A stretch of DNA of 64,000 nucleotides. It comes from Glandiceps talaboti. Taxonomy: Eukaryota > Hemichordata > Enteropneusta > Spengelidae. The position numbers and the translations under genes are program-made. Below are positions 18,549 to 56,694 of this stretch, in pieces. The notes under the pieces are model-generated. The model was not told where the DNA came from, ran no database searches, and saw only the letters and a list, made by a program, of their open reading frames with translations. The stretch lies in contig NC_135566.1 of the NCBI RefSeq assembly GCF_964340395.1, positions 21,099,584 through 21,163,583 on the forward strand. Direction: 5' to 3'. The stretch's first letter is position 1; every line of letters starts with the position of its first letter.

Positions 18549-18655
18549 TCATTTACGTAGTCTGATGACAGTGCTAGCAGCAATCAGAAATAAACATCCC
18601 CATGCTACAGTGACTAGGTATCCTCTCCATACCTGAAGGTATGCTAAGCCCCAAC
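18549..18655 (-). CDS. ABC transporter last coding exon with stop
   Basis: Acceptor ttttcatccag at 18656 on the minus strand, entering with two nucleotides of a split Gly codon. Encodes WGLAYLQVWRGYLVTVAWG, then a hydrophobic last membrane helix (CLFLIAAST), ending VIRLRK and TGA at 18549-18551. The basic C-terminal tail matches the usual end of the family. Confidence 0.9.
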
Positions 18656-20213
18656 CTGGATGAAAACAATACATATTGCATTATTTAATCTACACTATCT
18701 ACATTGTACTTTCTAATTTTGACATCATCAAGGTCATTTTTAAAGTATTAAAGTATTTGTCACAACTTTGAGCCATATGTGATTTCAACTAATCTTTTGT
18801 TAAATCCCTATTTTAATAATTCATACAGGTTTTCAATTCCATTTCACTCCATTAACTCTGAATAAAGTGGTCCAATCCCACTATGCAGAACAGTCCCTGT
18901 ATGTACTTGATCTAATTGGTGGCAATTGGCAAATGTACTATTACCCTATAAGAGGATTCCAACATTAAATTTTAGATAGCTGGGTCCAAAATGACCCAAG
19001 GTTATTTATGGTATTCATATAAAATAGCACCAATGGTATTGTAGCACAACTGTATTTGGCTGTTGCCATGGGTATGATCTTGTTGCTTGGCAGATTTGCA
19101 TACATTTTTTGAATGTTCATTCACTTGCCTATAAACTCTTGTTATTATATTACCAATATAAACCACCATTTGGCTGTTGCTATGGTTGCGGTCTTGTTGC
19201 TAGGCATATTTGCATATATTTTTGGAATCTTTATTCACTTGCCTACCCGTCCCAGTTTTCATCTTGCAATTTAAACCACCATTTCACTATTGCTAAGGGA
19301 GTGGTCATGGTTGCTAGGGCCAGTTTGTCAAAATGTTTATAATTGCAGAATAGTTTTACAGAAACATTCCCACCGTGTTTCAGCCCCATTCACCATGTAG
19401 TTTTTAAGAGCTTAGTTTTAGACCAATACTAAGATTGTATACCTAATCTGCATATCATCATGTTGTAAATACTCCAGGTTCATCTACACATCCCCAAATG
19501 CATCCTTACTAAATTTCAGCCAATACTGCTCAAGCAGTAGTTTTGGAATTACAGATTATTTTTGACAAAAAAGACACTTTTACATCTAATTTGCATACCA
19601 TTGATGGGATCGTGTTATAGACCTTTTGTAATTATAGACTTTTAGTTTAAGTCATTTAGTCCTAATTTGCATATCATTGATGGGATCATCATGTCAAGAA
19701 AACTTATTAATCTAAATACCCCTCAGAACATTCCCACTTAATCCCAGCCCCACCTGCTCATTAATTTTGGAATGATAGACTTTTGACCAAAAAGACACAT
19801 TTTTAGCCCTAATTTGCATATCACTAATGGAATCTTCATGTCATGAACAATTCTTAACTAAACACCTCCTAGAACATTCCCACCAAATTTCACACCAATC
19901 TGCAAGGTACTTCTGGAGTTTAAGTTTTTTGACCCAAAATGCACATCTCTGATGCGTTTACTTTTCATCTGAACAATTTTCCATCTAGATGCCCTAAGTA
20001 ATTTCATCATCAATAACCTATTCAGCATAGTTGATGGCATAAAATAGGGGTTTCTTAGTATTTTACCTACATCATTGAAATAATGTTAGTATTCAGCCCC
20101 AGTACATGGTTTGAGTAGTGATATATGCTACAAATGTTATATGTATTGCATATTAGCTCCCTCAATAAAGAAAGATTGGGTGTAAGTTATGTCTGTCTAA
20201 AACTGAAACTTAC
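18656..20213 (-). other. Intron of the transporter gene holding a family B copy
   Basis: GTAAGT donor at 20208-20213 and AG acceptor at 18656-18657. Most of 19016-20060 is a reverse-oriented family B repeat (starts gcaccaatggtattgtagca, with repeated 'ttgctatgg..tggtcttgttgc' modules). No minisatellite is present in this intron. Confidence 0.7.
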
Positions 20214-20318
20214 CACGGAACATAATACACCTCAACGCCTCAGTGGCAAATGTTTGTGGTAGACAATAACTGAGATAACGCAGTGGATATGGAATTGCTT
20301 CTAGTGGCCAGATTAAAC
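20214..20318 (-). CDS. ABC transporter exon (IWPLEAIP / CLPQTFATEAL)
   Basis: 105 nt with phase 1 in and phase 1 out. Encodes LIWPLEAIPYPLRYLSYCLP, then QTFATEALRCIMFR. The 'GxIWPxExMP..LR..SY.LPQT.ATEA' stretch is the extracellular re-entrant segment before the last helix and the strongest family signature in the gene. Acceptor aaggttta context with a ttcctttcag tract; donor GTAAGT. Confidence 0.93.
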
Positions 20319-27962: not shown

Positions 27963-28122
27963 CACTGAGTAGCATATTTGGATAGAAGGATCCCAAGGAA
28001 GCTTGTACAGCACTATTTTCATCATCACAGACAGCTGATATCAATAATCCAAAAGCCATACCACACAGACCTTGCAAGATTGTCAGGAAAAACAGAGCAC
28101 CCAATGAACCAACACATGGAAC
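27963..28122 (-). CDS. ABC transporter exon (LQGLCGMAFG / SFYPNMLLSG)
   Basis: 160 nt entering on a whole codon. Encodes VPCVGSLGALFFLTILQGLC, then GMAFGLLISAVCDDENSAVQ and ASLGSFYPNMLLS, with one nucleotide over. This is the fifth membrane helix followed by the conserved cytoplasmic-to-extracellular turn of the ABCG20/ABCH group. Donor GTAAGT at 27957-27962, acceptor tcttacag at 28123-28124. The first 16 exon nucleotides (28107-28122) also form the founder unit of the 28-bp intronic array. Confidence 0.95.
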
Positions 28123-28230
28123 CTGTAAGAATTATAACCAACACATGGTTATTGTGATAATTATAAACCAACACATGGTGAATTAACCAACACATGGTGA
28201 ATTGTAAGAATTAACCAACATATGGTGAAC
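28107..28230. repeat. Founder and transition units of the 28-bp array, spanning the splice acceptor
   Basis: On the plus strand the junction reads aaccaacacatggaacctgt then aagaatt; the array unit reads aaccaacacatggtgaactg then taagaatt. The founder begins inside the exon and crosses the acceptor at 28123. Two longer transitional units (about 28131-28185) follow before the regular 28-bp spacing starts. Confidence 0.85.
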
Positions 28231-28604
28231 AAGTCATTGAGAATGACATAATCCCTGCTATGATTGGGTTTTAAAGAACTTGCAGTTTATGTTGCAATTT
28301 CTTGATATCACTATTCTGATCACGCAACAACACTTGTGAACCTAAATCAAACAGACTTAGATATGTTGTGTCTGCTCGTTGGACATGGAACACGCCTACT
28401 CTTCAAGATGACGTCATGGAATAAACCATTCAACAATAAAGGATGAGTCAGGTACAAGGGGGGGGGGGGACCTGGTGTATGTTGCCCTTGTACCAAGTTT
28501 GAAAAAAATCGGTCCAGGCATCTACAAGAAACGGCTCTGGACGGACAGACAGACGGACACACGGACGCACTCACGGACGGACGGAACCCAATCCATAAGT
28601 CCGA
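28231..28604 (-). mobile_element. Family A copy inserted into the 28-bp array
   Basis: It splits the array. The right part (gaaacggctctggacggaca ... ataagtcc) is the reverse complement of 262-345, and the left part (tcattgagaatgacataatc) is the reverse complement of the 880-935 end. It lacks the internal 152-bp copies. It contains a G run near 28460. Confidence 0.75.
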
Positions 28605-28605
28605 A

Positions 28606-31600
28606 TAATAAACCAACACATGATGAATTCTAAGAATTAACCAACACATGGTGAATTGTAAGAATTAACCAACACATGGTGAATTGTAAGAATTAACCAA
28701 CACATGGTGAATTGTAAGAATTAACCAACACATGGTGAATTGTAAGAATTAACCAACACATGGTGAATTGTAAGAATTAACCAACACATGGTGAACTGTA
28801 AGAATTAACCAACACATGGTGAATTGTAAGAATTAACCAACACATGGTGAATTGTAAGAATTAACCAACATATGGTGAATTGTAAGAATTAACCAACACA
28901 TGGTGAATTGTAAGAATTAACCAACACATGGTGAACTGTAAGAATTAACCAACACATGGTGAATTGTAAGAATTAACCAACACATGGTGAATTGTAAGAA
29001 TTAACCAACACATGGTGAATTGTAAGAATTAACCAACACATGATGAATTGTAAGAATTAACCAACACATGATGAACTGTAAGAATTAACCAACACATGGT
29101 GAACTGTAAGAATTAACCAACACATGGTGAACTGTAAGAATTAACCAACACATGATGAATTGTAAGAATTAACCAACACATGGTGAATTGTAAGAATTAA
29201 CCAACACATGATGAATTGCAAGAATTAACCAACACATGGTGAATTGTAAGAATTAACCAACACATGGTGAATTGTAAGAATTAACCAACACACGATGAAT
29301 TGTAAGAATTAACCAACACATGGTGAATTGTAAGAATTAACCAACACATGGTGAACTGTAAGAATTAACCAACACATGGTGAATTGTAAGAATTAACCAA
29401 CACATGGTGAATTGTAAGAATTAACCAACACATGGTGAACTGTAAGAATTAACCAACACATGGTGAATTGTAAGAATTAACCAACACATGGTGAATTGTA
29501 AGAATTAACCAACACATGGTGAACTGTAAGAATTAACCAACACATGGTGAATTGTAAGAATTAACCAACACATGATGAATTGTAAGAATTAACCAACACA
29601 TGATGAATTGTAAGAATTAACCAACACATGGTGAACTGTAAGAATTAACCAACACATGGTGAATTGTAAGAATTAACCAACACATGGTGAATTGTAAGAA
29701 TTAACCAACACATGATGAATTGTAAGAATTAACCAACACATGGTGAATTGTAAGAATTAACCAACACATGGTGAATTGTAAGAATTAACCAACACATGGT
29801 GAATTGTAAGAATTAACCAACACATGGTGAATTGTAAGAATTAACCAACACATGGTGAATTGTAAGAATTAATCAACACATGGTGAATTGTAAGAATTAA
29901 CCAACACATGGTGAACTGTAAGAACTAACCAACACATGGTGAATTGTAAGAATTAACCAACACATGATGAATTGTAAGAATTAACCAACACATGGTGAAC
30001 TGTAAGAATTAACCAACACATGGTGAATTGTAAGAATTAACCAACACATGGTGAATTGTAAGAATTAACCAACACATGGTGAACTGTAAGAATTAACCAA
30101 CACATGGTGAATTGTAAGAATTAACCAACACATGGTGAATTGTAAGAATTAACCAACACGTGGTGAATTGTAAGAATTAACCAACACGTGGTGAATTGTA
30201 AGAATTAACCAACACATGATGAATTGTAAGAATTAACCAACACATGGTGAATTGTAAGAATTAACCAACACATGGTGAATTGTAAGAATTAACCAACACA
30301 TGGTGAATTGTAAGAATTAACCAACACATGGTGAATTGTAAGAATTAACCAACACATGGTGAATTGTAAGAATTAACCAACACATGGTGAATTGTAAGAA
30401 TTAACCAACACATGGTGAATTGTACGAATTAACCAACACATGGTGAATTGTAAGAATTAACCAACACATGGTGAACTGTAAGAACTAACCAACACATGGT
30501 GAATTGTAAGAATTAACCAACACATGGTGAATTGTAAGAATTAACCAACACATGGTGAACTGTAAGAATTAACCAACACATGGTGAATTGTAAGAATTAA
30601 CCAACACATGATGAATTGTAAGAATTAACCAACACATGATGAATTGTAAGAATTAACCAACACATGGTAAATTGTAAGAATTAACCAACACATGGTGAAC
30701 TGTAAGAATTAACCAACACATGGTGAATTGTAAGAATTAACCAACACATGGTGAACTGTAAGAATTAACCAACACATGGTGAATTGTAAGAATTAACCAA
30801 CACATGGTGAATTGTAAGAATTAACCAACACATGGTGAACTGTAAGAATTAACCAACACATGGTGAACTGTAAGAATTAACCAACACATGGTGAATTGTA
30901 AGAATTAACCAACACATGATGAACTGTAAGAATTAACCAACACATGGTGAATTGTAAGAATTAACCAACACATGGTGAACTGTAACAATTAACCAACACA
31001 TGGTGAACTGTAAGAATTAACCAACACATGGTGAATTGTAAAAATTAACCAACACATGGTGAATTGTAAGAATTAACCAACACATGGTGAATTGTAAGAA
31101 TTAACCAACATATGGTGAACTGTAAGAATTAACCAACACATGGTGAACTGTAAGAATTAACCAACACATGGTAAATTGTAAGAATTAACCAACACATGGT
31201 GAATTGTAAGAATTAACCAACACATGGTGAATTGTAAGAATTAACCAACACATGGTGAATTGTAAGAATTAACCAACACATGGTGAATTGTAAGAATTAA
31301 CCAACACATGGTGAATTGTAAGAATTAACCAACACATGGTGAACTGTAAGAATTAACCAACACATGGTGAACTGTAAGAATTAACCAACACATGGTGAAT
31401 TGTAAGAATTAACCAACACATGGTGAATTGTAAGAATTAACCAACACATGGTGAATTGTAAGAATTAACCAACACATGGTGAACTGTAAGAATTAACCAA
31501 CACATGGTGAACTGTAAGAATTAACCAACACATGGTGAATTGTAAGAATTAACCAACACATGATGAATTGTAAGAATTAACCAACACATGGTGAATTGTA

Positions 31601-34600
31601 AGAATTAACCAACACATGGTGAATTGTAAGAATTAACCAACACATGGTGAACTGTAAGAATTAACCAACACATGGTGAATTGTAAGAATTAACCAACACA
31701 TGGTGAATTGTAAGAATTAACCAACACATGGTGAATTGTAAGAATTAACCAACACATGGTGAATTGTAAGAATTAACCAACACATGGTGAATTGTAAGAA
31801 TTAACCAACACATGGTGAACTGTAAGAATTAACCAACACATGGTGAATTGTAAGAATTAACCAACACATGGTGAATTGTAAGAATTAACCAACACATGGT
31901 GAATTGTAAGAATTAACCAACACATGGTGAATTGTAAGAATTAACCAACACATGGTGAATTGTAAGAATTAACCAACACATGGTGAATTGTAAGAATTAA
32001 CCAACACATGGTGAACTGTAAGAATTAACCAACACATGGTGAATTGTAAGAATTAACCAACACATGGTGAACTGTAAGAATTAACCAACACATGGTGAAC
32101 TGTAAGAATTAACCAACACATGGTGAATTGTAAGAATTAACCAACACATGGTGAATTGTAAGAATTAACCAACACATGGTGAACTGTAAGAATTAACCAA
32201 CACATGGTGAACTGTAAGAATTAACCAACACATGGTGAATTGTAAGAATTAACCAACACATGGTGAATTGTAAGAATTAACCAACACATGGTGAATTGTA
32301 AGAATTAACCAACACATGGTGAATTGTAAGAATTAACCAACACATGGTGAATTGTAAGAATTAACCAACACATGATGAATTGTAAGAATTAACCAACACA
32401 TGGTGAATTGTAAGAATTAACCAACACATGGTGAACTGTAAGAATTAACCAACACATGGTGAATTGTAAGAATTAACCAACACATGGTGAATTGTAAGAA
32501 TTAACCAACACATGGTGAACTGTAAGAATTAACCAACACATGGTGAATTGTAAGAATTAACCAACACATGGTGAATTGTAAGAATTAACCAACACATGGT
32601 GAATTGTAAGAATTAACCAACACATGGTGAATTGTAAGAATTAACCAACACATGGTGAATTGTAAGAATTAACCAACACATGGTGAATTGTAAGAATTAA
32701 CCAACACATGGTGAACTGTAAGAATTAACCAACACATGGTGAATTGTAAGAATTAACCAACACATGGTGAACTGTAAGAATTAACCAACACATGGTGAAT
32801 TGTAAGAATTAACCAACACATGGTGAACTGTAAGAATTAACCAACACATGGTGAATTGTAAGAATTAACCAACACATGGTGAATTGTAAGAATTAACCAA
32901 CACATGGTGAATTGTAAGAATTAACCAACACATGGTGAACTGTAAGAATTAACCAACACATGGTGAATTGTAAGAATTAACCAACACATGGTGAACTGTA
33001 AGAATTAACCAACACATGGTGAATTGTAAGAATTAACCAACATATGGTGAACTGTAAGAATTAACCAACACATGGTGAACTGTAAGAATTAACCAACACA
33101 TGGTGAATTGTAAGAATTAACCAACACATGGTGAACTGTAAGAATTAACCAACACATGGTGAATTGTAAGAATTAACCAACACATGGTGAACTGTAAGAA
33201 TTAACCAACACATGGTGAATTGTAAGAATTAACCAACACATGATGAATTGTAAGAATTAACCAACACATGATGAATTGTAAGAATTAACCAACACATGGT
33301 AAATTGTAAGAATTAACCAACACATGGTGAACTGTAAGAATTAACCAACACATGGTGAATTGTAAGAATTAACCAACACATGGTGAACTGTAAGAATTAA
33401 CCAACACATGGTGAATTGTAAGAATTAACCAACACATGGTGAACTGTAAGAATTAACCAACACATGGTGAATTGTAAGAATTAACCAACACATGGTGAAT
33501 TGTAAGAATTAACCAACACATGGTGAATTGTAAGAATTAACCAACACATGGTGAACTGTAAGAATTAACCAACACATGGTGAATTGTAAGAATTAACCAA
33601 CACATGGTGAACTGTAAGAATTAACCAACACATGGTGAATTGTAAGAATTAACCAACATATGGTGAACTGTAAGAATTAACCAACACATGGTGAACTGTA
33701 AGAATTAACCAACACATGGTGAATTGTAAGAATTAACCAACACATGGTGAATTGTAAGAATTAACCAACACATGGTGAACTGTAAGAATTAACCAACACA
33801 TGGTGAATTGTAAGAATTAACCAACACATGGTGAACTGTAAGAATTAACCAACACATGGTGAACTGTAAGAATTAACCAACACATGGTGAATTGTAAGAA
33901 TTAACCAACACATGGTGAATTGTAAGAATTAACCAACACATGGTGAACTGTAAGAATTAACCAACACATGGTGAATTGTAAGAATTAACCAACACATGGT
34001 GAACTGTAAGAATTAACCAACACATGGTGAATTGTAAGAATTAACCAACATATGGTGAACTGTAAGAATTAACCAACACATGGTGAACTGTAAGAATTAA
34101 CCAACACATGGTGAATTGTAAGAATTAACCAACACATGGTGAACTGTAAGAATTAACCAACACATGGTGAACTGTAAGAATTAACCAACATATGGTGAAT
34201 TGTAAGAATTAACCAACACATGGTGAACTGTAAGAATTAACCAACACATGGTGAACTGTAAGAATTAACCAACACATGGTGAACTGTAAGAATTAACCAA
34301 CACATGGTGAACTGTAAGAATTAACCAACACATGGTGAACTGTAAGAATTAACCAACATATGGTGAATTGTAAGAATTAACCAACACATGGTGAACTGTA
34401 AGAATTAACCAACACATGGTGAACTGTAAGAATTAACCAACACATGGTGAATTGTAAGAATTAACCAACACATGGTGAACTGTAAGAATTAACCAACACA
34501 TGGTGAATTGTAAGAATTAACCAACACATGGTGAACTGTAAGAATTAACCAACACATGGTGAATTGTAAGAATTAACCAACACATGGTGAATTGTAAGAA

Positions 34601-35749
34601 TTAACCAACACATGGTGAATTGTAAGAATTAACCAACACATGATGAATTGTAAGAATTAACCAACACATGATGAATTGTAAGAATTAACCAACACGTGGT
34701 GAATTGTAAGAATTAACCAACACATGGTGAATTGTAAGAATTAACCAACACATGGTGAATTGTAAGAATTAACCAACACATGGTGAATTGTAGGAATTAA
34801 CCAACACATGGTGAATTGTAAGAATTAACCAACACATGGTGAATTGTAAGAATTAACCAACACATGGTGAATTGTAAGAATTAACCAACACATGGTGAAT
34901 TGTAAGAATTAACCAACATATGGTGAACTGTAAGAATTAACCAACACATGGTGAACTGTAAGAATTAACCAACACATGGTGAACTGTAAGAATTAACCAA
35001 CACATGGTGAATTGTAAGAATTAACCAACACATGGTGAATTGTAAGAATTAACCAACACATGGTGAACTGTAAGAATTAACCAACACATGGTGAATTGTA
35101 AGAATTAACCAACACATGGTGAACTGTAAGAATTAACCAACACATGGTGAATTGTAAGAATTAACCAACACATGGTGAATTGTAAGAATTAACCAACACA
35201 TGGTGAACTGTAAGAATTAACCAACACATGGTGAATTGTAAGAATTAACCAACACATGGTGAACTGTAAGAATTAACCAACACATGGTGAATTGTAAGAA
35301 TTAACCAACACATGGTGAATTGTAAGAATTAACCAACACGTGGTGAACTGTAAGAATTAACCAACACATGGTGAACTGTAAGAATTAACCAACACATGGT
35401 GAACTGTAAGAATTAACCAACACGTGGTGAATTGTAAGAATTAACCAACACATGGTGAACTGTAAGAATTAACCAACACATGGTGAATTGTAAGAATTAA
35501 CCAACACATGGTGAATTGTAAGAATTAACCAACACATGGTGAATTGTAAGAATTAACCAACACATGGTGAATTGTAAGAATTAACCAACACATGGTGAAC
35601 TGTAAGAATTAACCAACACATGGTGAATTGTAAGAATTAACCAACACATGGTGAACTGTAAGAATTAACCAACACATGGTGAATTGTAAGAATTAACCAA
35701 CACATGGTGAATTGTAAGAATTAACCAACACGTGGTGAATTGTAAGAAT
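28606..35749. repeat. 28-bp minisatellite, about 255 copies, 7.1 kb
   Basis: The unit is aattaaccaacacatggtga plus attgtaag. The spacing is almost perfectly regular. Most differences are binary: GAATTG or GAACTG, TGGTG or TGATG, and sometimes CACGTGG or CATATGG. It fills most of the intron between exons 36963-37066 and 27963-28122. On the gene's strand the GAACTG version reads tcttacag|ttcaccatg, a decoy copy of the true acceptor. Confidence 0.98.
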
Positions 35750-36940: not shown

Positions 36941-36962
36941 ATAGAGATTAAAGTGGACTAAC

Positions 36963-37066
36963 CTTGAACACTGCCAGGATAAACACTAACTCCAAGGTGA
37001 TTTGGAGAAACATAGTAATAAACTGAGTCATAATATGACCAATCATTAGTTCTACTGAACTTACAC
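36963..37066 (-). CDS. ABC transporter exon (VSSVELMIGHIMTQF)
   Basis: 104 nt with two nucleotides of a split Gly at the start. Encodes VSSVELMIGHIMTQFITMFL, then QITLELVFILAVFK. Third-fourth membrane helix region. The acceptor tract ttcttatttaacag and donor GTTAGT are clear. Confidence 0.93.
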
Positions 37067-37208: not shown

Positions 37209-37297
37209 CTGCCACCCAAATACGGTCCAATAACCCTTCCTTTCTTTCAATAATTAGTGACAATGCAGTCAAACCAACAGCTAAGAAATAGGTTATA
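37209..37297 (-). CDS. ABC transporter exon (IIERKEGLLDR coupling segment)
   Basis: 89 nt with one nucleotide in and one out. Encodes ITYFLAVGLTALSLIIERKE, then GLLDRIWVA. The ERKEGLLDR segment is the cytoplasmic coupling helix that contacts the ATP-binding domain in this transporter class. Acceptor tgcatttcag, donor GTTAGT. Only 142 bp separate it from the next exon. Confidence 0.94.
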
Positions 37298-37554
37298 CTG
37301 AAATGCAATGAGTAAATATAATCATTATGAGTCATTGTGTAAACAACACTCAGAACAACATGATCAGGAGGTCTTTTTGAAAAAAAAAGTGTGAAAATAT
37401 TACTGTAAAATTGTCAATAACTAAAAATCTGTATCATTCTGTATTAGTATGTTTAAAAATATACCCCTGATAATAAATGTCTTTGGCTATTTTCAGTATC
37501 AACATTATTTGTTTGAATTCATTAGTCATATTTTATAGGGTATTTTGTACTAAA

Positions 37555-40500
37555 GGGAAACTATCACTAGTCACACTGTATTACAGGGTATTCTTAGACT
37601 AAGAAACTATCATTAGTCACATTGTATTACAGGGTATTCTTAGACTAAGAAACTATCATTAGTCACACTGTATTACAGGGTATTCTTAGACTAAGAAACT
37701 ATCATTAGTCACACTGTATTACAGGGTATTCTTAGACTAAGAAACTACCATTAGTCACATTGTATTACAGGGTATTCTTAGACTAAGAAACTATCAGTAG
37801 TCACACTGTATTACAGGGTATTCTTAGACTAAGAAACTATTATTAGTCACATTGTATTACAGGATATTCTTAGACTAAGAAACTATTATTAGTCACACTG
37901 TATTACAGGGTATTCTTAGACTAAGAAACTATCACTAGTCACACTGTATTACAGGGTATTCTTAGACTAAGAAACTATCATTAGTCACACTGTATTACAG
38001 GGTATTCTTAGACTAAGAAACTATCATTAGTCACATTGTATAGGGTATTCTTAGACTAAGAAACTATCATTAGTCACATTGTATAGGGTATTCTTAGACT
38101 AAGAAACTACCATTAGTCACACTGTATTACAGGGTATTCTTAGACTAAGAAACTACCATTAGTCACACTGTATTACAGGGTATTCTTAGACTAAGAAACT
38201 ACCATTAGTCACACTGTATTACAGGGTATTCTTAGACTAAGAAACTATCATTAGTCACACTATTACAGGGTATTCTTAGACTAAGAAACTATCATTAGTC
38301 ACATTGTATAGGGTATTCTTAGACTAAGAAACTACCATTAGTCACATTGTATAGGGTATTCTTAGACTAAGAAACTATCATTAGTCACATTGTATAGCAG
38401 GGCTCGAAATTCGCGGTAGTCCCGCGTCCACAGACTACCAATGTTTGTCTCTGGGCTACCAAATTATGTGAGTGGTAGCCCCGTTGGGCTACTAAGTTTT
38501 GAATGAAACTGTGACAGCCTGATTCCGACGCCTTCCCGGGCCGGAGGCCTCTGAGGTCGCAGTCCTGTGGGACGTGTTCTCGCCAAAATTAGCGTCAAAA
38601 TCAGTGCGTCTTTTCCAAATTTGCATCCACACTACATGGTATATCAAATGCACATGATGAAATACACGTACACTGTACACCTGCTCAGGCTGCTGTACAC
38701 GTCATTCTTCCATACATCGTATACACAGCTTGTACTTCCAAAATGTCACAACAAAACATTTATATGCAACAATATTCTGTATAGCGATTTAATGTTATCT
38801 TTCTGTACTTTCAATTTTCCATGGTAATCACTCTCTGGAAATATGCTCTCCGGCCCGAACCCTTCGGGCTCTTCTCGGAGTCAGAGTACAGTCGGTACAG
38901 CACTACAGGAACTAAATTCCATTATTATGACAGCTTTAACTTTCAACTTGACAGAGACACAGTTTTAATGGTGTTTGATAGAATCTTATGCTGCTGATGA
39001 GAACTGTTAACTTGGTATACACCTGTCCTACAGATTTGTTTATTCTTGAACGATGCCTAAAACATTCCGTGTGTAAACCACGCTCACGCAACCCCATAGA
39101 GCATGCAGTGGTGAATGGTAAAATTCACGTAATGCATTCGATCTAGTAGTAGTAGCAAAGCTCAAAAGAAAGTTGAAGTTTTAGTGAGAATGAAATGGTG
39201 ACGTGATGGTTTGAATTTATCTGAGTGAAGTTTTCAGCAAGGACCGTCTACTGATGTAGTCTTAGACTCTGATTATCTCTTCGCCCATGAATGGAAGGGG
39301 CTTTGCCGTAATGGCCGTCAGGTATTGATACAAAACCTGTCTAACCCGTCTGTTAATAAGTAACCAATCACGTGGATAGATAATGATAATAGCACATAGT
39401 TTCTAAACTACCCAAGACGTAGTCTCCACATCAGGAAATGGCCATGGGGCTTATGAAACTGTTTATACGTTTTCCATACGTTGAATCATATTCAAATTTT
39501 ACAGGTCACACTGCACCAAGAGATTTAGCTAATAGTTACAACAACAACTGCGACTAGATGTCTTATTTTTCATTTCCAATGATAACCGCCCTGGATAACC
39601 GAACGTTGTTTGCTAACAATAAGCCTCATATGTCCCCTCTTTATGACACGTCCCCAGAGACACATACATGCAAAAAATTGCATCCCCAATGTCAAATATG
39701 GCGTGAAATACACACACATAACGTGTTAACGTGACCTCTCAAGTTATTCAATCAATCATCGAATTCAATACATCGTATAGTTACATGTATACACAAACAC
39801 CATTAATTTAGGAATGCATGCATATGGGCTACCAGTCACTGCTCTCGGGCTACCAAATTTAAATGATGGTAGCCCACGTGGGCTACCAAGAAAAAAAACG
39901 AATTTCGAGCCCTGATATATAGGGTATTCTTAGACTAAGAAACTACCATTAGTCACACTGTATTACAGGGTATTCTTAGACTAAGAAACTATCATTAGTC
40001 ACATTGTATAGGGTATTCTTAGACTAAGAAACTACCATTAGTCACACTGTATTACAGGGTATTCTTAGACTAAGAAACTACCATTAGTCACACTGTATTA
40101 CAGGGTATTCTTAGACTAAGAAACTATCATTAGTCACATTGTATAGGGTATTCTTAGACTAAGAAACTACCATTAGTCACACTGTATTACAGGGTATTCT
40201 TAGACCAAGAAACTACCATTAGTCACACTGTATTACAGGGTATTCTTAGACTAAGAAACTATCATTAGTCACATTGTATAGGGTATTCTTAGACTAAGAA
40301 ACTACCATTAGTCACACTGTATTACAGGGTATTCTTAGACTAAGAAACTATCATTAGTCACACTCTTAGACTAAGAAATTATCATTAGTCATTGTATAGG
40401 GTATTCTTAGACTAAGAAACTATCATTAGTCACACTGTATTACAGGGTATTCTTAGACTTAGAGTAAGAAACTATCATTAGTCATTGTATAGGGTATTCT
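37555..40500. repeat. 46-bp minisatellite (two blocks, 37555-38397 and 39915-40500)
   Basis: The unit is gggtattcttagactaagaa plus actatcattagtcacactgt and attaca. A 43-bp subtype ends cattgtata. Every unit contains a perfect 15-nt palindrome, TTCTTAG-A-CTAAGAA. A last partial unit follows at 40798-40845. The array is split by a hAT-like element and a TA-duplicating MITE. Confidence 0.95.
38398..39914. mobile_element. hAT-like non-autonomous transposon, 1517 bp
   Basis: Ends CAGGGCTCGAAATTCG and CGAATTTCGAGCCCTG are exact inverses. The flanks ttgtatag (38390-38397) and atatatag (39915-39922) are alike at 6 of 8 positions, consistent with an aged 8-bp hAT duplication. Subterminal repeats of gggctaccaaatt and ggtagcc occur near both ends. 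No transposase frame is seen, so it would need a source elsewhere in the genome. Confidence 0.8.
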
Positions 40501-40501
40501 A

Positions 40502-40797
40502 AAGGCCCAGTTACATGATGCAATTCGACAAGCAACGCACCACGCAATTCGTCAACAAGTTTCAGTCATTTTATTCGTAAATATGAGCAATTTTATAGCA
40601 TTTCTGCCAAGTTCCTGCCGCCAGAAGACTTGCCCTCTATATATGACCTGTAACTTTTATAGATCTACGCATGTGCAACAGTTAGCTCTTGCGACTCACC
40701 ATGCAACTAGTTGCTTCGTGTACGCGCTCCATCGCAGTTGCTAGCCTTGTCACATTCGACGAATTGCTTCATGAGTTTCATCATGTAACTGGGCCTT
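40502..40797. mobile_element. MITE with TA duplication (Tc1/mariner-like), 296 bp
   Basis: aaggcccagttacatgatg at the left is the inverse of catcatgtaactgggcctt at the right. TA flanks both ends (40500-40501 and 40798-40799). Rejoining the flanks rebuilds a 46-bp array unit apart from one T, so the insertion site is fixed by the array. It has no coding capacity. Confidence 0.8.
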
Positions 40798-40859
40798 TAG
40801 ACTAAGAAACTATATTAGTCACATTGTATAGGGCATTCTTAGACTGCATGACAACACAG

Positions 40860-41160
40860 TCTACCGTATATCAAACCTATGAATAACAAAGTCTATATCA
40901 AACCTACAATGTGATAACAAAGTCTATATCAAACCTAGAATGTGATAACAAAGTCTATATCAAACCTACAATGTGATAACAAAGTCTATATCAAACCTAC
41001 AATGTGATAACAAAGTCTATATCAAACCTACAATGTGATAACAACGTCAATATCAAACCTACAATGTGATAACAAAGTCTATATCAAACCTATGAATAAC
41101 AAAGTCTATATCAAACCTACAATGTGATAACAAAGTCAATATCATACCAACAATGTGATA
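40860..41160. repeat. 31-bp minisatellite, about 9 copies
   Basis: The unit is aacaaagtctatatcaaacc plus tacaatgtgat. Two short variants lack the 'acaatgtg' part (gaataacaaag). Confidence 0.9.
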
Positions 41161-41397
41161 TATCTAACTCAATGACCACACATACTGAAACACCCTCATA
41201 CTTCTTACTCATGGCTCTCAATATAACCTTGTAAATGTTATAAGTATATACTCCAGACATATTCTGTTTAACATTTTGCCATTTTCTGTTATAGTAGTAT
41301 TTTTCTGTCAGAGTGAAAACTGGAGTTGGTCAAGGCATGAGGAATACATGAAAAAAGATAAAGTTGCACTATGGCAGAAATGGTCGATAAATCTTAC

Positions 41398-41468
41398 CTT
41401 AGAATGACACCTGGTGCCATAAAGTCAGTAAACGTTGAATCAAGACTTCCATAGATAGGGTCCATAAA
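41398..41468 (-). CDS. ABC transporter exon (FMDPIYGS / DFMAPGVIL)
   Basis: 71 nt, phase 0 in and two nucleotides over. Encodes FMDPIYGSLDSTFTDFMAPG then VIL. The 'F.PIYG....FTDF.APGVIL' block marks the end of the extracellular loop and the start of the second helix in ABCG20-like proteins. Acceptor tttttctctag, donor GTAAGAT. Confidence 0.92.
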
Positions 41469-41714
41469 CTAGAGAAAAAATAGGAAATTTAATATAAAAT
41501 CATTTTAGAATTGCACATCTTGACTTGAATCTCATGTTCCAATTTTTGTTAATTTTTCTTAAGATAAATACTTACAAATGCCATAGAGGTCATGTGACAT
41601 GATTATATGAGTAGAGAAATTAATTGACCAGCTCAAAACTCAGTATAAATACAAACATATGGAATTCATTTGAACTCCAAGTCAAACATTTCTGTTTTCA
41701 TCACTAGTCTTTTA

Positions 41715-42405
41715 GCTGTAGTATCTGGGGAGCCTCTTCCCCACTTTTAGTTTCGGCTACCATATTTAGCTCTTGCTACCAAGGTAGTCTCTTCTTCACT
41801 TTTTGCTTTATCTACCTAGGGAGCCCCTTTTCCATTTTAAGTTTCAGCTACCTAGGGAGTCTCTTCTTCACTTTTTGCTTTATCTACCTAGGGAGTCTCT
41901 TTTCCATTTTTAGCTCTTGCTACCTAGGGAGTCTCTTCTTCACTTTTAGCTTTATCTACCTAGGGAGTCTCTTTTCCATTTTAGCTCTTGCTACCAAGGT
42001 AGTCTCTTCTTCACTTTTAGCTTTATCTACCTAGGGAGCCCTTTTCCATTTTAAGTTTCAGCTACCTAGGGAGTCTCTTCTTCACTTTTTGCTTTATCTA
42101 CCTAGGGAGTCTCTTTTCCATTTTTAGCTCTTGCTACCAAGGTAGTCTCTTCTTCACTTTTAGCTTTATCTACCTAGGGAGTCTCTTTTCCATTTTAAGT
42201 TTCAGCTACCTAGGGAGTCTCTTCTTCACTTTTTGCTTTATCTACCTAGGGAGTCTCTTTTCCATTTTTAGCTCTTGCTACCTAGGGAGTCTCTTCTTCA
42301 CTTTTAGCTTTATCTACCTAGAGAGCCCCTTTTCCATTTTAAGTTTCAGCTACCTAGGGAGTCTCTTCTTCACTTTTATATTCAGCTACCTTGGAAGCCT
42401 CTTTT
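41715..42405. repeat. Minisatellite of about 36 bp in 72-bp higher-order pairs
   Basis: The half-units ctacctagggagtctcttct (tcacttttagc) and ctacctagggagtctctttt (ccattttaag) alternate, giving about 9-10 pairs. Each half-unit carries the palindrome CCTAGG, and a 'ccaaggtag' variant appears at intervals. Confidence 0.85.
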
Positions 42406-42604
42406 CAACTCTATAAGGTTACAGGGACAAGCATTTTGAGACCTTGTCTAACAAGTTCATCCCATTTTCATCAAGTTAGTCAAGGTTGTTTTTACATTAT
42501 TTTTCCAAGTAGGAAATTATAGGAATGTTTTTCTTTAACAATCAAAAACCTAAAATAAATACCTACGTGTCATCCATATGGCCTGTGATTGGGTTATGTT
42601 CCTA

Positions 42605-43062
42605 GTTGTAATTGTACATACCAAACTAAGTCATTTAATGGTGGAATATATACTTACTACAACTGGTAATGTGCATACCAAACTAAGTCATTTAATGGTG
42701 AAATATATACTTACTACAACTGGTAATGTGCATACCAAACTAAGTCATTTAATGGTGGAACATATACTTACTACAACTGGTAATTGTACATACCAAACTA
42801 AGTCATTTAATGGTGAAATATATACTTACTACAACTGGTAATGTGCATACCAAACTAAGTCATTTAATGGTGAAATATATACTTACTACAACTGGTAATG
42901 TGCATACCAAACTAAGTCATTTAATGGTGAAATATATACTTACTACAACTGGTAATGTGCATACCAAACTAAGTCATTTAATGGTGAAATATATACTTAC
43001 TACAACTGGTAATGTGCATACCAAACTAAGTCATTTAATGGTGGAACATAAAGTATACTTAC
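42605..43062. repeat. 57-bp minisatellite, about 8 copies, abutting and copying the splice donor
   Basis: The unit contains atatacttactacaactggt then aatgtgcataccaaactaag. On the gene strand each unit reads ttaccagttgta|gtaagtat, which is the last exon nucleotides plus the 5' splice site of exon 43063-43178. The array begins exactly at that donor. 57 is divisible by 3, so open frames appear on both strands. Confidence 0.95.
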
Positions 43063-43178
43063 TACAACTGGTAATTGTGCTAGTAGTGGATTGGCACCAA
43101 TTGCTTGCAGGATGACATCAGCAAACTTTTGATATGCTTGAAGTGTTTCCTGTGTTAATGTGACTGCTATTTGCTCAT
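43063..43178 (-). CDS. ABC transporter exon, extracellular loop (EQIAVTLTQETLQAY)
   Basis: 116 nt with two nucleotides of a split Asn at the start, ending on a whole codon. Encodes EQIAVTLTQETLQAYQKFAD, then VILQAIGANPLLAQLPVV. The acceptor is tactttacag. The donor GTAAGTATA is the first of a series of near-identical copies repeated through the intronic array. Confidence 0.92.
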
Positions 43179-43274
43179 CTGTAAAGTAAGCCACAAAACA
43201 TTGGTGTGTGTGAAATGATGTCACATATTCTAACATGTATATTCTGTCCTTGTCCTGAAAGTATCCATGTTTGT

Positions 43275-44822
43275 TTGAACACAGCTAATTTGAGACTTAT
43301 GTACGTCAGTGTGAACAGAGCTAATGTCTTAATTTGAGACTTATGAATATCAGTGTGAACACAGCTAATGTCTTAATTTGAGACTTATGTACGTCAGTGT
43401 GAACCAGGGGCATGAGGCAATAATACTGGTGAAAGTCGAAAATGATAATGATGTCATACAGGTAATAAAGGCTCAAGTTAGCTATGAGTCACATTTACAT
43501 ACTTACTTCTTTATTTATAGTGTATTTTAATAAACTCATTGTTATTTTGGGTATAAGGCCAGAAATGGAATGATTAAAAATATTATATGTATGTACTTGT
43601 ACACTTTCTGGTCTTTTAAAAAATGAAACAATTTTTTTATAATAATCGCAGAAAAAAAGTTTATATAAATATGGAAGACTCCAAAAAAGAATAAAGAAAA
43701 AAGAAAGTATACGGATAGACGTGGTGCAAAATCGACGCTTAATGCGCTCGCGACAGCTGACGCGCTCCGCTGCTTGGCGTGCTCGAGCTCAAACGTATTC
43801 CTTGCTTAAACTTGTAATACAGAGGGGTAGGACACAGCATTGAATAAACCTATCAGGATGCTTCAAATCGAACAGGTGACCCATGAATTTTCTCTCAAAG
43901 CTTGATACTACCTGCTGCCCTCTTGTGGTGAGGTATATATTTCGCATGTTGCAGTACATTGTGGCGTTGGCGGGACAGTAAAACAGATTGCCAAAACAGC
44001 ATATTATATGAACTGAAGCTCCGAAACGGTGCGTATTTTGCGAGGGATATAAACAAAAACACAATTGATAATATCTTGGTTTAATCAATATTTAGTGCCG
44101 TAGAGTTGCGGTAGGCTCGAACACACAGTCAATTGCGGTCTATATTATTTTCATAAAATTACGTAAAAATAATCATTAAACATTAGTCGTCATATCTGTG
44201 TCTCTTCAAAATATACCTTTGAATGAAAGAGAAAACATAACAACATCATTTGACCGTATACTCGTAAGTTTGCCCGAAACAGAAAGCGTCCGTGATCGAG
44301 GGCGATGTGGTTTCAAGCTTACGACAAAAAAGAACACCAAAGTGTCCTACCCCTTCTTTTTTAGCAAATGCTGAGCTCGTGGAGGTTGAATTTTCAAATC
44401 CAAGATTTGAATCATTCGATCTCGCAATCGCGCGACAAGACAGAGAAGTAAATTCTACGACCGTTGGGGGCGCTATTCAATCAGTACACTCCACAGCAGT
44501 GTCCCGTATATTCTATTTGTATTCCAGCACGATTCGATCAAGTTAAGTATATGTATTTCTCTGTGTATTATAATTATATATTAATTAGCGATTCAAGATA
44601 CTGAATATAATGATAAACAAGAACTTGACAGAACTTGTTGATGTTGTCTATATGGCGTTATTCAATATTGTAATTATAGACATCAGAATTGTTGCCTCAA
44701 GCCCTTGTGTGAACATAGCTACTGTCTTAATTTGAGACTTACATATATCAGTGTGAACACAGCTAATGTCTTAATTTGAGACTTATGTATATCAGTGTGG
44801 ACAGAGCTAATGTCTTAATTTC
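43275..44822. repeat. 44-bp minisatellite, about 6 copies, split by a hAT-like element
   Basis: The unit is gtgtgaacacagctaatgtc then ttaatttgagacttatgtat. About three copies lie at 43275-43404 and three at 44707-44822. Confidence 0.85.
43405..44706. mobile_element. hAT-like non-autonomous transposon with exact 8-bp duplication
   Basis: The left end caggggcatgaggcaa and the inverse of the right end (aagggcttgaggcaa) pair with two mismatches over 15 bp. GTGTGAAC flanks it exactly on both sides (43397-43404 and 44707-44714). Inside, gggtaggacac near 43825 and gtgtcctaccc near 44341 form a distant inverted pair. Two small open frames (43789-44088 minus, 44292-44546 plus) show no transposase motif. 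Confidence 0.75.
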
Positions 44823-44849
44823 AGCCCATAATCCAGTTCACTTACTTAC

Positions 44850-44923
44850 TTGTCATATCTAATGTCACTTTAATAGAACTGCCATTAATGGTGGCATTAT
44901 CAACATGCAGTCCTTGCTCATAT
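44850..44923 (-). CDS. ABC transporter exon, extracellular loop (YEQGLHVDNATINGS)
   Basis: 74 nt with one nucleotide in and one out. Encodes YEQGLHVDNATINGSSIKVT, then LDMT. Contains N-glycosylation sequons NAT and NGS, as expected for the large extracellular loop. Acceptor tttttacacag, donor GTAAGT. Confidence 0.9.
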
Positions 44924-45052
44924 CTGTGTAAAAATACAAAAACAATATTATGATTAGTTTCTGAACCAGTACAGCAAAACATTCATACCAGAAAATAAAC
45001 TATAATTGTACATTTAATATTAATATTTGATTAAAGAAGGGTGAATTCTATG

Positions 45053-46568
45053 AATGTCTTCTTCAGATGATTGTGGATGATTGTGTTGTTGTAGACCAAA
45101 TGATTGTATAGGATGATTGTGTTGTTGTGGACCAAAGGATTGTATAGGATGATTGTGTTGTTGTAGACCAAAGGATTGTATAGGATGATTGTGTTGTTGT
45201 AGACCAAAGGATTGTATAGGATGATTGTGCTGTTGTAGACCAAAGGATTGTATAGGATGATTGTGTTGTTGTAGACCAAAGGATTGTATAGGATGATTGT
45301 GTTGTTGTAGACCAAAGGATTGTATAGGATGATTGTGTTGTTGTAGACCAAATGATTGTATAGGATGATTGTGTTGTTGTGGACCAAATGATTGTATAGG
45401 ATGATTGTGTTGTTGTGGACCTAAGGATTGTATAGGATGATTGTGTTGTTGTAGACCAAAGGATTGTATAGGATGATTGTGTTGTTGTAGACCAAATGAT
45501 TGTATAGGATGATTGTGTTGTTGTAGACCAAATGACTGTATAGGATGATTGTGTTGTTGTAGACCAAAGGATTGTATAGGATGATTGTGTTGTTGTAGAC
45601 CAAATGATTGTATAGGATGATTGTGCTGTTGTAGACCAAAGGATTGTATAGGATGATTGTGTTGTTGTGGACCTAAGGATTGTATAGGATGATTGTGTTG
45701 TTGTAGACCAAAGGATTGTATAGGATGATTGTGTTGTTGTAGACCAAAGGATTGTATAGGATGATTGTGCTGTTGTAGACCAAAGGATTGTATAGGATGA
45801 TTGTGTTGTTGTAGACCAAAGGATTGTATAGGATGATTGTGTTGTTGTAGACCAAAGGATTGTATAGGATGATTGTGTTGTTGTGGACCAAATGATTGTA
45901 TAGGATGATTGTGTTGTTGTGGACCAAAGGATTGTATAGGATGATTGTGTTGTTGTAGACCAAATGATTGTATAGGATGATTGTGTTGTTGTAGACCAAA
46001 GGATTGTATAGGATGATTGTGTTGTTGTAGACCAAAGGATTGTATAGGATGATTGTGTTGTTGTGGACCAAAGGATTGTATAGGATGATTGTGTTGTTGT
46101 GGACCAAATGATTGTATAGGATGATTGTGTTGTTGTAGACCAAAGGATTGTATAGGATGATTGTGTTGTTGTAGACCAAAGGATTGTATAGGATGATTGT
46201 GTTGTTGTAGACCAAAGGATTGTATAGGATGATTGTGTTGTTGTAGACCAAAGGATTGTATAGGATGATTGTGTTGTTGTAGACCAAAGGATTGTATAGG
46301 ATGATTGTGTTGTTGTGGACCAAAGGATTGTATAGGATGATTGTGTTGTTGTAGACCAAAGGATTGTATAGGATGATTGTGTTGTTGTAGACCAAATGAT
46401 TGTATAGGATGATTGTGTTGTTGTAGACCAAAGGATTGTATAGGATGATTGTGTTGTTGTAGACCAAAGGATTGTATAGGATGATTGTGTTGTTGTAGAC
46501 CAAAGGATTGTATAGGATGATTGTGCTGTTGTGGACCAAATGATTGTATAGGATGATTGTGTTGTTCA
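45053..46568. repeat. 36-bp minisatellite, about 42 copies
   Basis: The unit is ggatgattgtgttgttgtag then accaaaggattgtata. Binary variants: tgttgtag or tgttgtgg, and aaaggatt or aaatgatt. As 36 is a multiple of 3, the minus strand runs open as a 12-residue repeat, in three frames broken only where units carry 'cctaagg'. Confidence 0.97.
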
Positions 46569-46637
46569 GGACAACATTTTGTTGTATAACTCTACCACTA
46601 TCAATTGTATTGAGGTGTTTGGATAATTTAATCTTAC

Positions 46638-46741
46638 CGTGCTATAAGATCTTGTGAAAAGTTTTGTCCCATGTGAATAATTCCCCAATAATGTCCTTGT
46701 TTGACACCATCAATGGCATCATCCATGTGAGAGACGGCTAC
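46638..46741 (-). CDS. ABC transporter exon, extracellular loop (VAVSHMDDAIDGV)
   Basis: 104 nt, phase 0 in and two nucleotides over. Encodes VAVSHMDDAIDGVKQGHYWG, then IIHMGQNFSQDLIA. 'A...V..G..WG......NFS..L..R' matches the loop of ABCG20-like transporters, and NFS is a sequon. Acceptor tctatgtacag, donor GTAAGAT. Confidence 0.93.
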
Positions 46742-46763
46742 CTGTACATAGACACCAGAGTAA

Positions 46764-48045
46764 TATATATATATATACTTTATTGTCATGCTAAATTTAC
46801 ATGAAATTCGATGTACATTGGCAGGGGGAAAGGGAAGAACACACAGAGACTATTTCAACTTACTTTACATATACATACATATACATAAACACACGTCAGA
46901 CTGCTACTGATTCAATAGATGGATTGACCTTGGTACAAAACTGTGCTTAAATCTATTTGTGCGAGAACGTGGAACCCTAAGGCGACGACCACTTGGAAGA
47001 TATTCATACTCTGTATGAAGTGGATGATTAGGATCTTTCATTATTTTATCCGCCATCTTAATAACTTTATCTTTGTACACCACAGAGTTCTGAACAGGTT
47101 CATCATGGCTGTCATCAAGTAACCTTTTACAGATCTTTCTAGGGCGATTGAGGTCTTCTTGGAGATGGTTTGATAGCAGATCATAGAAGGCGGTGTTAGC
47201 ATAGTTAATAACAGACGATATTGTTGAGTTGAAAAACAGAGCTATTACGTTTGAACTTACATTTAACTTTCTCATTGATCTTATATGATACATTCGTTTG
47301 TTTACCTTTCTCAATTGATTTTCTACGTGTTGTGCGAATGACAATTTGCAGTCGATCATACAACCTAAATATGGATATGATGACACTCTCTCTACCTTCA
47401 TATTATTGATCGCAACTGGTTGTTTTTCATTTTGTCTTCTTCTAAAGTCCAATACAAGCTCTTTCGTCTTTGACACATTAAGATCTAAATAGTTATCATT
47501 ACACCAGGTGTTAACAAAATCAATACACTCAAAATATTCACGATCGTCATCACTCGAAATAAACCCCACAACAGCTGAGTCGTCTGCATACTTCTCAATC
47601 ATTGCCCCCTCAGTGTCCCATGCTAAATCATTTGTATACAAAACAAAAAGAACAGGTGACAACACACAACCCTGAGGTGCTCCTGTATTAATTGTAATAG
47701 TGCTTGATGTTTCGAAGCTGGTGCGAACATACTGAGATCTTCCGGTCAGATAATCTAATATCCATAATTGTAGATAATTAGGAACATTGAGCACATTCAA
47801 TTTATTTAGCATTAAATGAGGTTGTATCGTGTTGAATGCTGAAGAGTAGTCAATGAACAAGACTCTAACTGTATTTGACGATTTAATAGTAACTGTTGTT
47901 ACTATTGCCCTAATAGTAACATTTTCTAGAAACAGTTCAACTACATATGCTATATTTAAGAATAACCACAGTAGATCATCATTCTTGATTAATATATCAT
48001 GTATAAACGTGGTCAAAATCATCCCTACAAAACACATCTCCCATC
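46764..48045 (-). mobile_element. 5'-truncated L2/CR1-type LINE inserted in the intron
   Basis: The open frame 46904-48037 gives 377 residues, of which about 54-377 are a recognisable reverse transcriptase: FIDYSSAFNTI at 61-71 (first catalytic Asp), GAPQGCVLSP at 119-128, YADD at 150-153, a 'WC..N.L.LN..KTKELVLDFR' block, and the C-terminal FKHSFVPRSIHLLNQ typical of L2/CR1 elements. The 3' end reads tgacaataaagt followed by a TA microsatellite, as usual for this clade. The N-terminal reverse-transcriptase segments and the endonuclease are missing, so it cannot move by itself. The frame is otherwise unbroken, which suggests a recent insertion. It lies in the same orientation as the host gene, about 23 bp upstream of the acceptor of exon 46638-46741 in genomic terms. 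Confidence 0.92.
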
Positions 48046-48149
48046 ATAATTAGCTCATGGCTTCAAAAGAAAATGTCTTCATTCTATGAGTACTGAAAAT
48101 TCTTCACTACTAACTATGGTTGTCATTCTTCATGGTAGAATTGATTTAG

Positions 48150-48245
48150 AACAGCATTGTAGCACAACTGTAAAGTTTGAAAGTTTGTGATAAATTAAAT
48201 TTAAAAAAAATGTTTATCCACCCCAAGGCTTGTTGTTACCCATGC
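48150..48245 (-). mobile_element. Family B terminal fragment
   Basis: aacagcattgtagcacaact plus gtaaagtttg matches the reverse terminus of family B. The rest of the repeat is absent. Confidence 0.5.
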
Positions 48246-48249
48246 AATA

Positions 48250-49858
48250 TACACATCATTTCAGTATTGCTATGTACACTTTCCTAACTGCAGGGTGACT
48301 ATATCATATCATTTCAGTATTGCTAAGTACACTTTCCTAGCTGCAGGGTGACTATATCATATCATTTCAGTATTGCTAAGTACACTTTCCTAGCTGCAGG
48401 GTGACTATATCATATCATTTCAGTATTGCTATGTACACTTTCCTAACTGCAGTGTGACTATATCATATCATTTCAGTATTGCTATGTACACTTTCCTAGC
48501 TGCAGGGTGACTATATCATATCATTTCAGTATTGCTATGTACACTTTCCTAACTGCAGGGTGACTATATCATATCATTTCAGTATTGCTATGTACACTTT
48601 CCTAGCTGCAGGGTGACTATATCATATCATTTCAGTATTGCTAAGTACACTTTCCTAGCTGCAGGGTGACTATATCATATCATTTCAGTATTGCTATGTA
48701 CACTTTCCTAACTGCAGGGGGACTATATCACATCATTTCAGTATTGCTATGTACACTTTCCTAGCTGCAGGGTGACTATATCACATCATTTCAGTATTGC
48801 TATGTACACTTTCCTAACTGCAGGGTGACTATATCATATCATTTCAGTATTGCTATGTACACTTTCCTAGCTGCAGGGTGACTATATCATATCATTTCAG
48901 TATTGCTATGTACACTTTCCTAACTGCAGGGTGACTATATCACATCATTTCAGTATTGCTATGTACACTTTCCTAGCTGCAGGGTGACTATATCATATCA
49001 TTTCAGTATTGCTATGTACACTTTCCTAGCTGCAGGGTGACTATATCACATCATTTCAGTATTGCTATGTACACTTTCCTAACTGCAGGGTGACTATAAT
49101 ATCATATCATTTCAGTATTGCTATGTACACTTTCCTAGCTGCAGGGTGACTATATCACATCATTTCAGTATTGCTATGTACACTTTCCTAACTGCAGGGT
49201 GACTATATCACATCATTTCAGTATTGCTATGTACACTTTCCTAGCTGCAGGGTGACTATATCACATCATTTCAGTATTGCTATGTACACTTTCCTAACTG
49301 CAGGGTGACTATATCATATCATTTCAGTATTGCTATGTACACTTTCCTAGCTGCAGGGTGACTATATCATATCATTTCAGTATTGCTATGTACACTTTCC
49401 TAACTGCAGGGTGACTATATCATATCATTTCAGTATTGCTATGTACACTTTCCTAGCTGCAGGGTGACTATATCATATCATTTCAGTATTGCTATGTACA
49501 CTTTCCTAACTGCAGGGTGACTATATCATATCATTTCAGTATTGCTATGTACACTTTCCTAACTGCAGGGTGACTATATCATATCATTTCAGTATTGCTA
49601 TGTATACTTTCCTAGCTGCAGGGTGACTATATCATATCATTTCAGTATTGCTATGTACACTTTCCTAACTGCAGGGTGACTATATCACATCATTTCAGTA
49701 TTGCTATGTACACTTTCCTAGCTGCAGGGTGACTATATCATATCATTTCAGTATTGCTATGTACACTTTCCTAACTGCAGGGTGACTATATCATATCATT
49801 TCAGTATTGCTATGTACACTTTCCTAACTGCAGGGTGACTATATCATATCATTTCAGT
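48250..49858. repeat. 53-bp minisatellite, about 30 copies
   Basis: The unit is tatatcatatcatttcagta then ttgctatgtacactttccta and actgcagggtgac. The spacing is 53 bp. The binary site 'cctaactgcag/cctagctgcag' often alternates copy by copy, hinting at a 106-bp higher-order unit. Confidence 0.96.
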
Positions 49859-50076
49859 ACTGAGGGTATAAAAAATGGTGTGACCCACCATACCACCAAC
49901 ACCCCTCCCCCCACAGTCTTACTGGTCCATCATGCATATACTTTATGAGATCAAGGACCATTAAAAGCAAGACGCAGTTTCTAACCACAATACTTAAGAT
50001 TTATTGATAATAATTTTATTATATAATACTTACAAATCTATACAAGGCCTAGGGTTGAGATATTTGACTATCGTAC

Positions 50077-50242
50077 CTGAGATATTGTATGGTTGTTTAA
50101 ACTCTGCAAGTACACTTGACTGAAAGTAGGGGGATGTTCTTCATTCACTATGGCAACAGACAGTCCATGTGGAGTTCCACCAATTGCAAGACAGAATAAA
50201 ACAACCTGAATAACTGGTAAAACAACCTGAAAAATCAAAAAG
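50077..50242 (-). CDS. ABC transporter exon, first membrane helix and start of loop
   Basis: 166 nt with one nucleotide of a split Gly at the start. Encodes FLIFQVVLPVIQVVLFCLAI (first helix), GGTPHGLSVAIVNEEHPPTF, then SQVYLQSLNNHTISQ with one sequon (NHT). Three possible acceptors lie close together. The outermost, ctctctactag at 50243-50244, is chosen because only it joins in frame to the upstream exon and restores the full helix. The two internal cag sites duplicate a gttgtttta motif. Confidence 0.9.
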
Positions 50243-51960: not shown

Positions 51961-51964
51961 TACT

Positions 51965-56430: not shown

Positions 56431-56478
<48 letters not shown>

Positions 56479-56652: not shown

Positions 56653-56694
<42 letters not shown>

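Follow-up and report, generated by a model that had tools for sequence, protein, structure and literature searches.

In a 64,000-nucleotide (nt) stretch of the genome of the hemichordate Glandiceps talaboti (assembly GCF_964340395.1, contig NC_135566.1, positions 21,099,584 to 21,163,583; hereafter the window, numbered from its first letter), a minus-strand ABC transporter gene carries 255 tandem units of 28 bp in the intron that runs from its exon g donor (36962) to its exon h acceptor (28123). The derivation of this unit from the gene's own acceptor junction is well supported by sequence comparison. The array fits a known kind of repeat, the junction-spanning minisatellites named "mirages" in amphioxus in the accessible text of two reports (PMC3087553, PMC3902484); it appears to be a very long one compared with the units of the amphioxus globin BflGb6, and similar arrays recur within the same gene and at other genes. 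An earlier reading of the letters alone (hereafter the sequence-only reading) had described a 28-bp, 255-copy intronic satellite seeded by the gene's 3' splice site, and of that description the satellite is confirmed and its seeding well supported. Its span of 28107-35749 was too generous: the array is real at 28607-35749, but the span takes in 377 nt of inserted, non-repeat sequence (28230-28606).

The main array (28607..35749, minus strand) was detected by Tandem Repeats Finder (TRF) as a row with period 28, 255.1 copies, 97% matches, and 0% indels, and its gene-strand unit reads CTTACA(A/G)TTCACCATGTGTTGGTTAATT. When cut in register, the 255 units collapse to 18 distinct sequences, the bulk of them being the commonest unit, CTTACAATTCACCATGTGTTGGTTAATT (137 copies), together with its CAG-for-CAA version (74 copies). 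With this common A/G site set aside, the mean number of mismatches is 0.19 per unit. The sequence-only reading spoke of scores of decoy acceptors; the AG that a decoy needs is present in 83 units, which read CAG, while 171 read CAA and the remaining unit reads GAA. Toward the exon, the number of CAG units per 85-unit third falls from 37 to 26 to 20 (trend p 0.005). No higher-order repeats were found in the main array, where the top lag agreement (0.62) stayed below the 95% permutation maximum (0.66).

Between the main array and the exon lies a proximal cluster of units (28107..28229, minus strand) with a period of about 29, which continues into exon h and whose intronic part contains no AG before the true one, as judged from TRF, the letters, and AG distances. 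These units are more degenerate than those of the main array, and TRF reports the part nearest the exon as a row of its own (28107-28179, period 29). The insert that breaks the array tract (28230..28606) has parts that are 77-93% alike to window positions 269-337, 868-938, 958-1043, and 1056-1189 (blastn within the window plus a 40-kb flank). The outermost unit of the tract is the real junction, as seen from the letters at about 28094-28260 and from the frame of exons b-j.

Several comparisons connect the unit with the junction. The 41 nt at 28095-28135 align to the CAG unit with a score of 45, which none of 20,000 dinucleotide shuffles reached (maximum 35), and the exonic part of the junction alone scores 29, a value reached by two of 20,000 shuffles. 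With the proximal cluster masked, the junction score is 65, and none of 1,000 random 80-nt windows came up to it (maximum 25). The simplest founder consists of 13 intronic nt (ATAATTCTTACAG) and 16 exonic nt (GTTCCATGTGTTGGTT), 29 bp in all; the founder proposed by the sequence-only reading, which starts 16 nt inside the exon and crosses the acceptor, agrees with this alignment. The unit includes both exon and intron letters of the junction that it adjoins. Allowing up to 3 mismatches, the unit pattern has 256 occurrences in the 590-Mb assembly and 256 in the window alone, and a backward control pattern is absent genome-wide. It is on these equal counts (256 = 256) that the confinement of the unit to the window rests. 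The sequence-only reading had allowed for a better-matching source elsewhere, and none was found at up to 3 mismatches in the 590-Mb genome scan. As a stand-in for the ancestral junction we looked for a paralogous one; the 188-aa C-terminal part of the transporter matched its own exons only (5 of 5 hits).

The exon borders of the gene, including 28123|28122, were set by frame and homology rather than by transcripts. Exon h (27963..28122, minus strand) begins with the roughly 16 nt, encoding VPCVG, that make up the exonic part of the putative founder unit. Exons b-j join into 1080 nt with a single uninterrupted frame and one terminal stop (359 aa), so the frame is open across the junction, as had been claimed. 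The resulting protein matches the Pfam domain ABC2_membrane_3 over residues 1-351 (profile positions 8-345 of 347, E 1.9e-36), and this alignment lends homology support to the predicted exon border at 28122.

The decoy acceptors are not stacked directly upstream of the true one, as the sequence-only reading had it. The nearest TTACAG (in a CAG unit) lies 673 nt upstream of the true AG, which stands behind 130 nt of AG-free degenerate units. The corresponding AG-free distance at the gene's 14 other acceptors is 14-49 nt; outside the listed arrays, only 4 of 1,773 AG-AG gaps reach at least 130 nt, and the gap at the true acceptor is probably among them. Seven branch-like YTNAY motifs fall at -42 to -104 from the true AG. 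With a position weight matrix (PWM) built from 13 other acceptors of the gene, the true site scores 8.9 and the CAG decoy 4.8. For exons whose branch points are distant and which have AG exclusion zones, splicing is described as taking the first AG that follows the branch point (PMC1431707). Those exons resemble the present one in having a long AG-free stretch ahead of the used 3' splice site; they differ in that here the AG-free zone consists of degenerate repeat units and the branch point is a candidate only. If the first-AG rule of that report applies, a branch point within the 130-nt zone would reach the true AG first. We infer that splicing copes with the array by such AG exclusion.

Taken together, these observations make it very probable that the array is a mirage, that is, a minisatellite of ordinary birth whose founder spanned the junction of intron g-h and exon h and which grew very long, with splicing reaching the true AG by way of the AG-free proximal units. 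It would have begun with a tandem duplication of 29 bp that joined a point about +16 in the exon to one about -13 in the intron; slippage or unequal exchange would then have enlarged and homogenized the copies in the intron until there were 255 units of 28 bp. Meanwhile, selection on the coding sequence would have held the exon-bearing end unit in place. The units nearest the exon are degenerate and free of AG for 130 nt, so that a branch point among them would meet the true AG first. The AG is likewise missing from two thirds of the remote units (CAA).

A number of details weigh against this account. Aligned with the junction, the CAG unit shows a 1-nt deletion, a 2-nt insertion, and one substitution; given these small changes, the main array does not descend directly from the junction as it stands today, and the two would instead go back to a common ancestor. 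The fall in CAG numbers toward the exon is weak when blocks of 5-20 units are permuted (p 0.01-0.03). On the side of splicing, the YTNAY motif is a loose one, and N5 (-2.9) and f (1.9), both real acceptors of the gene, score below the decoy in the leave-one-out PWM. Since that matrix rests on 13 sites and these real acceptors do worse than the decoy, the decoy cannot be called too weak.

A reversed order of events would start with the array, a mobile or satellite repeat, from which exon h or its acceptor was later recruited. An array edge could in principle supply splice sites, but the copies of the unit in the genome equal those in the window, exon h is an unbroken part of the ABC2_membrane_3 domain, and other arrays of this genome span different junctions; we consider this order very improbable. 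Still harder to believe is a chance resemblance between unit and junction. The gene is 48% tandem array, and the 36 arrays in its span invite many comparisons, but no shuffle or random window came near the observed scores, and a graded proximal cluster physically connects the junction with the array.

A different question is whether the decoys are used, with alternative or recursive splicing through the units giving rise to regulated or noisy transcripts. TTACAG is retained in 83 units, the motif scores higher than roughly 95% of the AGs present in 104 kb, and, as noted, two real acceptors rank below it. Against such use, the decoys lack the G at +1 and score below the true site, and they lie at least 673 nt upstream, beyond the AG-free zone. 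The 28-nt unit also contains TAA, and because 28 is not divisible by 3, a transcript that retained units would soon hit a stop. In addition, the amphioxus mirages are reported or inferred, in the accessible text, to leave splicing undisturbed (PMC3087553, PMC3902484). Use of the decoys therefore seems improbable, and under the account that we prefer, a mirage with an AG-free buffer, they would stay silent.

The sequence-only reading regarded a satellite born from an exon-intron border as unusual. As a one-off it is not: two more junction-spanning arrays were found in the same gene when 27 junctions were compared with 28 TRF rows lying between 18 kb of the window and 78.5 kb of the window plus flank. 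The second array (42608..43080, minus strand, 57 bp x 8.2, identified by TRF and alignment) has a unit that covers the exon d donor (CCAGTTGTA|GTAAGTATA), exon d itself (43063..43178, minus strand, set by frame and homology) being its presumed founder. It matches this donor with a score of 80 against a null maximum of 25-26, and GTAAGTATA is kept by the real donor and by all seven listed copies. The third (74 bp x 4.8) lies outside the window at 75636-75990 of the window plus flank (flank L010, C19:21175219-21175573) and spans the donor of the Walker-A exon; a donor is kept in four of five listed copies, and the last copy reads GTAAGG, which looks stronger than the real donor, GTAGGG. Among the 28 rows, junction matches were confined to the 28-bp main array, its proximal row, and the 57-bp and 74-bp arrays. 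We rejected several other candidates as splice-seeded. The 44-bp arrays (43286-43404 and 44707-44821) have a 15-nt intronic match past the c2 donor that none of 1,000 random windows equaled, but exon letters are absent from it. A 28-bp array at 59942 resembles the g acceptor over 13 nt (a match equaled in 3 of 1,000 random windows), a 34-bp array at 20907 matches the N4 acceptor (3 of 1,000), and the rows at 55460 and 76504 match the N4 donor (14 and 19 of 1,000) and are dispersed-repeat-like.

Beyond this gene, we examined myosin-head exons (the best 30 of 78 exon matches) and kinesin motor exons (the best 30 of 142). Of the 30 myosin exons, 5 have a junction-spanning array (counted by edges, 5 of 60), at acceptors in two loci (L024 and L036) and at donors in three (L027, L041, and L045); they were accepted on the basis of TRF and a reading of the letters, not by a statistical test. 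A TRF row with a period of at least 10 overlaps the matched exon at 6 of the 30 myosin loci. One of these, L026, was dropped on the ground that its match bridges six stops, with the rows inside that stretch. Rows that lay close to an exon match but did not overlap it (e.g., at L022, L030, L034, L040, and L043) were left uncounted, although a profile match can end before the exon edge. None of the 30 kinesin exons has a junction-spanning array, and none has a TRF row within 40 nt of the matched exon.

Many of the kinesin loci appear to be members of a single amplified family. Motor exons recur at 1.8-2.1 kb spacing in opposite-strand clusters (at about 18.85 and 19.49 Mb of contig C22 and about 19.04 and 19.24 Mb of C23, among L054-L077), and the clusters have the appearance of a tandemly amplified and inverted kinesin-like family.

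Do splice junctions attract such births, for example through R-loops, nicks, or repair at junctions, so that mirages are targeted rather than founded by chance? If founders are placed at random, the ABC gene together with the 30 myosin and 30 kinesin loci should hold 3.2 junction-spanning arrays, and 8 were seen (P 0.017); without the main 28-bp array the count is 7 (P 0.045). The myosin loci alone gave 5 against 1.65 expected (P 0.026), and the ABC gene alone gave 3 against 0.96 (P 0.07). On the other side, the myosin and kinesin families together gave 5 against 2.25 (P 0.08), and the apparent membership of many kinesin loci in a single family makes the sample small. When the expectation is drawn from array coverage instead, the ABC gene has 3 arrays where 14 would be expected, and the 60 myosin edges have 5 against 6.4; by this measure there is no enrichment. 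A junction preference is not established, and we regard targeting as unlikely. A broader proposal is somewhat less likely again: junctions would be hot spots of minisatellite birth across the non-vertebrate deuterostomes (lancelets and acorn worms), and the CAA majority, the drop in AG units toward the exon, and the buffer without AG would all reflect selection silencing decoys. Were it true, many introns of these animals would carry arrays of their own splice sites, amounting to a natural experiment in 3' splice site choice.

The amphioxus cases offer the closest comparison with the mirage that we favor here. According to the accessible text, mirages occur there in Adh3 and in the globins BflGb6 and BflGb9 (PMC3087553) and in TnC and PGBD5 (PMC3902484). 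They share with the present array edge units that escape homogenization and splice signals that many units keep and others do not (here the 83 CAG units of 255 keep them). In contrast, the BflGb6 mirage has 6 and 3 units in two haplotypes (PMC3087553), whereas here 255 units extend over 7.1 kb, and the amphioxus host is a cephalochordate rather than a hemichordate. The Rogers model of intron gain by tandem duplication of AG|GT, as cited in PMC3087553, likewise involves tandem copies with splice signals inside a gene; here, however, the copies lie within an existing intron, and no new intron was seen in this gene. A literature search, with most subscription papers outside its scope, found no report of mirages in hemichordates. 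Since the same kind of repeat is known from lancelets, mirages would be a wider feature of such genomes and not a one-off, and their presence in a hemichordate would show that they are not peculiar to cephalochordates. Deuterostome genomes rich in tandem repeats may quite generally gain additional splice signals by this route, which would bear on how introns grow and arise and on how genes are annotated. The present locus, with 83 AG and 171 AA versions of one acceptor in one intron, would be a ready test of the first-AG rule once transcripts are sequenced.

The rest of the host gene, all on the minus strand, was assembled by frame and homology. Upstream of the array-bearing intron, exon g (36963..37066) ends in the donor AAG|GTTAGT at 36962. 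Exons a (56966-56783), b (50226-50077), c (46741-46638), c2 (44923-44850), e (41468-41398), and f (37297-37209) fall within 37209..56966, and exons i (20318-20214) and j (18655-18549, with the stop) within 18549..20318; one exon expected between a and b was not found. Exons farther upstream, mostly past the window in the flank (L009-L010), encode an ABC_tran domain (E 4.6e-33). The predicted order of one nucleotide-binding domain followed by one membrane domain suggests a half transporter, which we take to be ABCG/ABCH-like.

Further long minisatellites occupy 15609-17373, 20907-23734, 45075-46566, 48247-49859, 51968-53522, and 59942-64000, five of the six lying inside the ABC gene, and none of the six gave a convincing match to any of the tested junctions. 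The intron between b and c contains, on the minus strand at 46907-48043, an open reading frame (ORF) that we recognized by eye as resembling a reverse transcriptase of the long interspersed nuclear element (LINE) type. Near the transporter gene are a sulfotransferase ORF (7614-8573, minus strand, Pfam E 9e-55) and a Gly_transf_sug glycosyltransferase ORF (11964-13160, plus strand, Pfam E 3e-13).

A side observation concerns contig C40 (L078-L080), which contains cox1 three times at a spacing of 15,435 nt, as if the mitochondrial circle had been assembled in tandem; this is probably an artefact. In the counted stretches of cox1 and cox2, the codons AAA, AGA, and AGG are absent and ATA occurs at nine sites. 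Several of these ATA sites are presumably positions that are usually Ile, and one (PGFG-x-SH in cox1) a position that is usually Met. In Balanoglossus, ATA is reported to encode Ile, with AAA and AGG missing, whereas ATA is Met in Cephalochordata and AAA is Asn in Echinodermata (PMC3121625, in the text available). Likewise, the available text of PMC2697986 describes the mitochondrial gene order of Balanoglossus as virtually vertebrate-like and those of echinoderms as very different. On C40 the readable order is nd2, trnN(-), a tRNA with anticodon tca, trnA(-), trnY(-), cox1, trnS(-), and cox2, with nd2 and cox2 recognized by eye. Codon use and gene order together thus make an enteropneust hemichordate very probable, in agreement with the assembly record; amphioxus was rejected on the mitochondrial code, and the gene order argues against an echinoderm. 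The tca-anticodon tRNA was called selenocysteine (SeC) by ARAGORN, and we take it for Trp.

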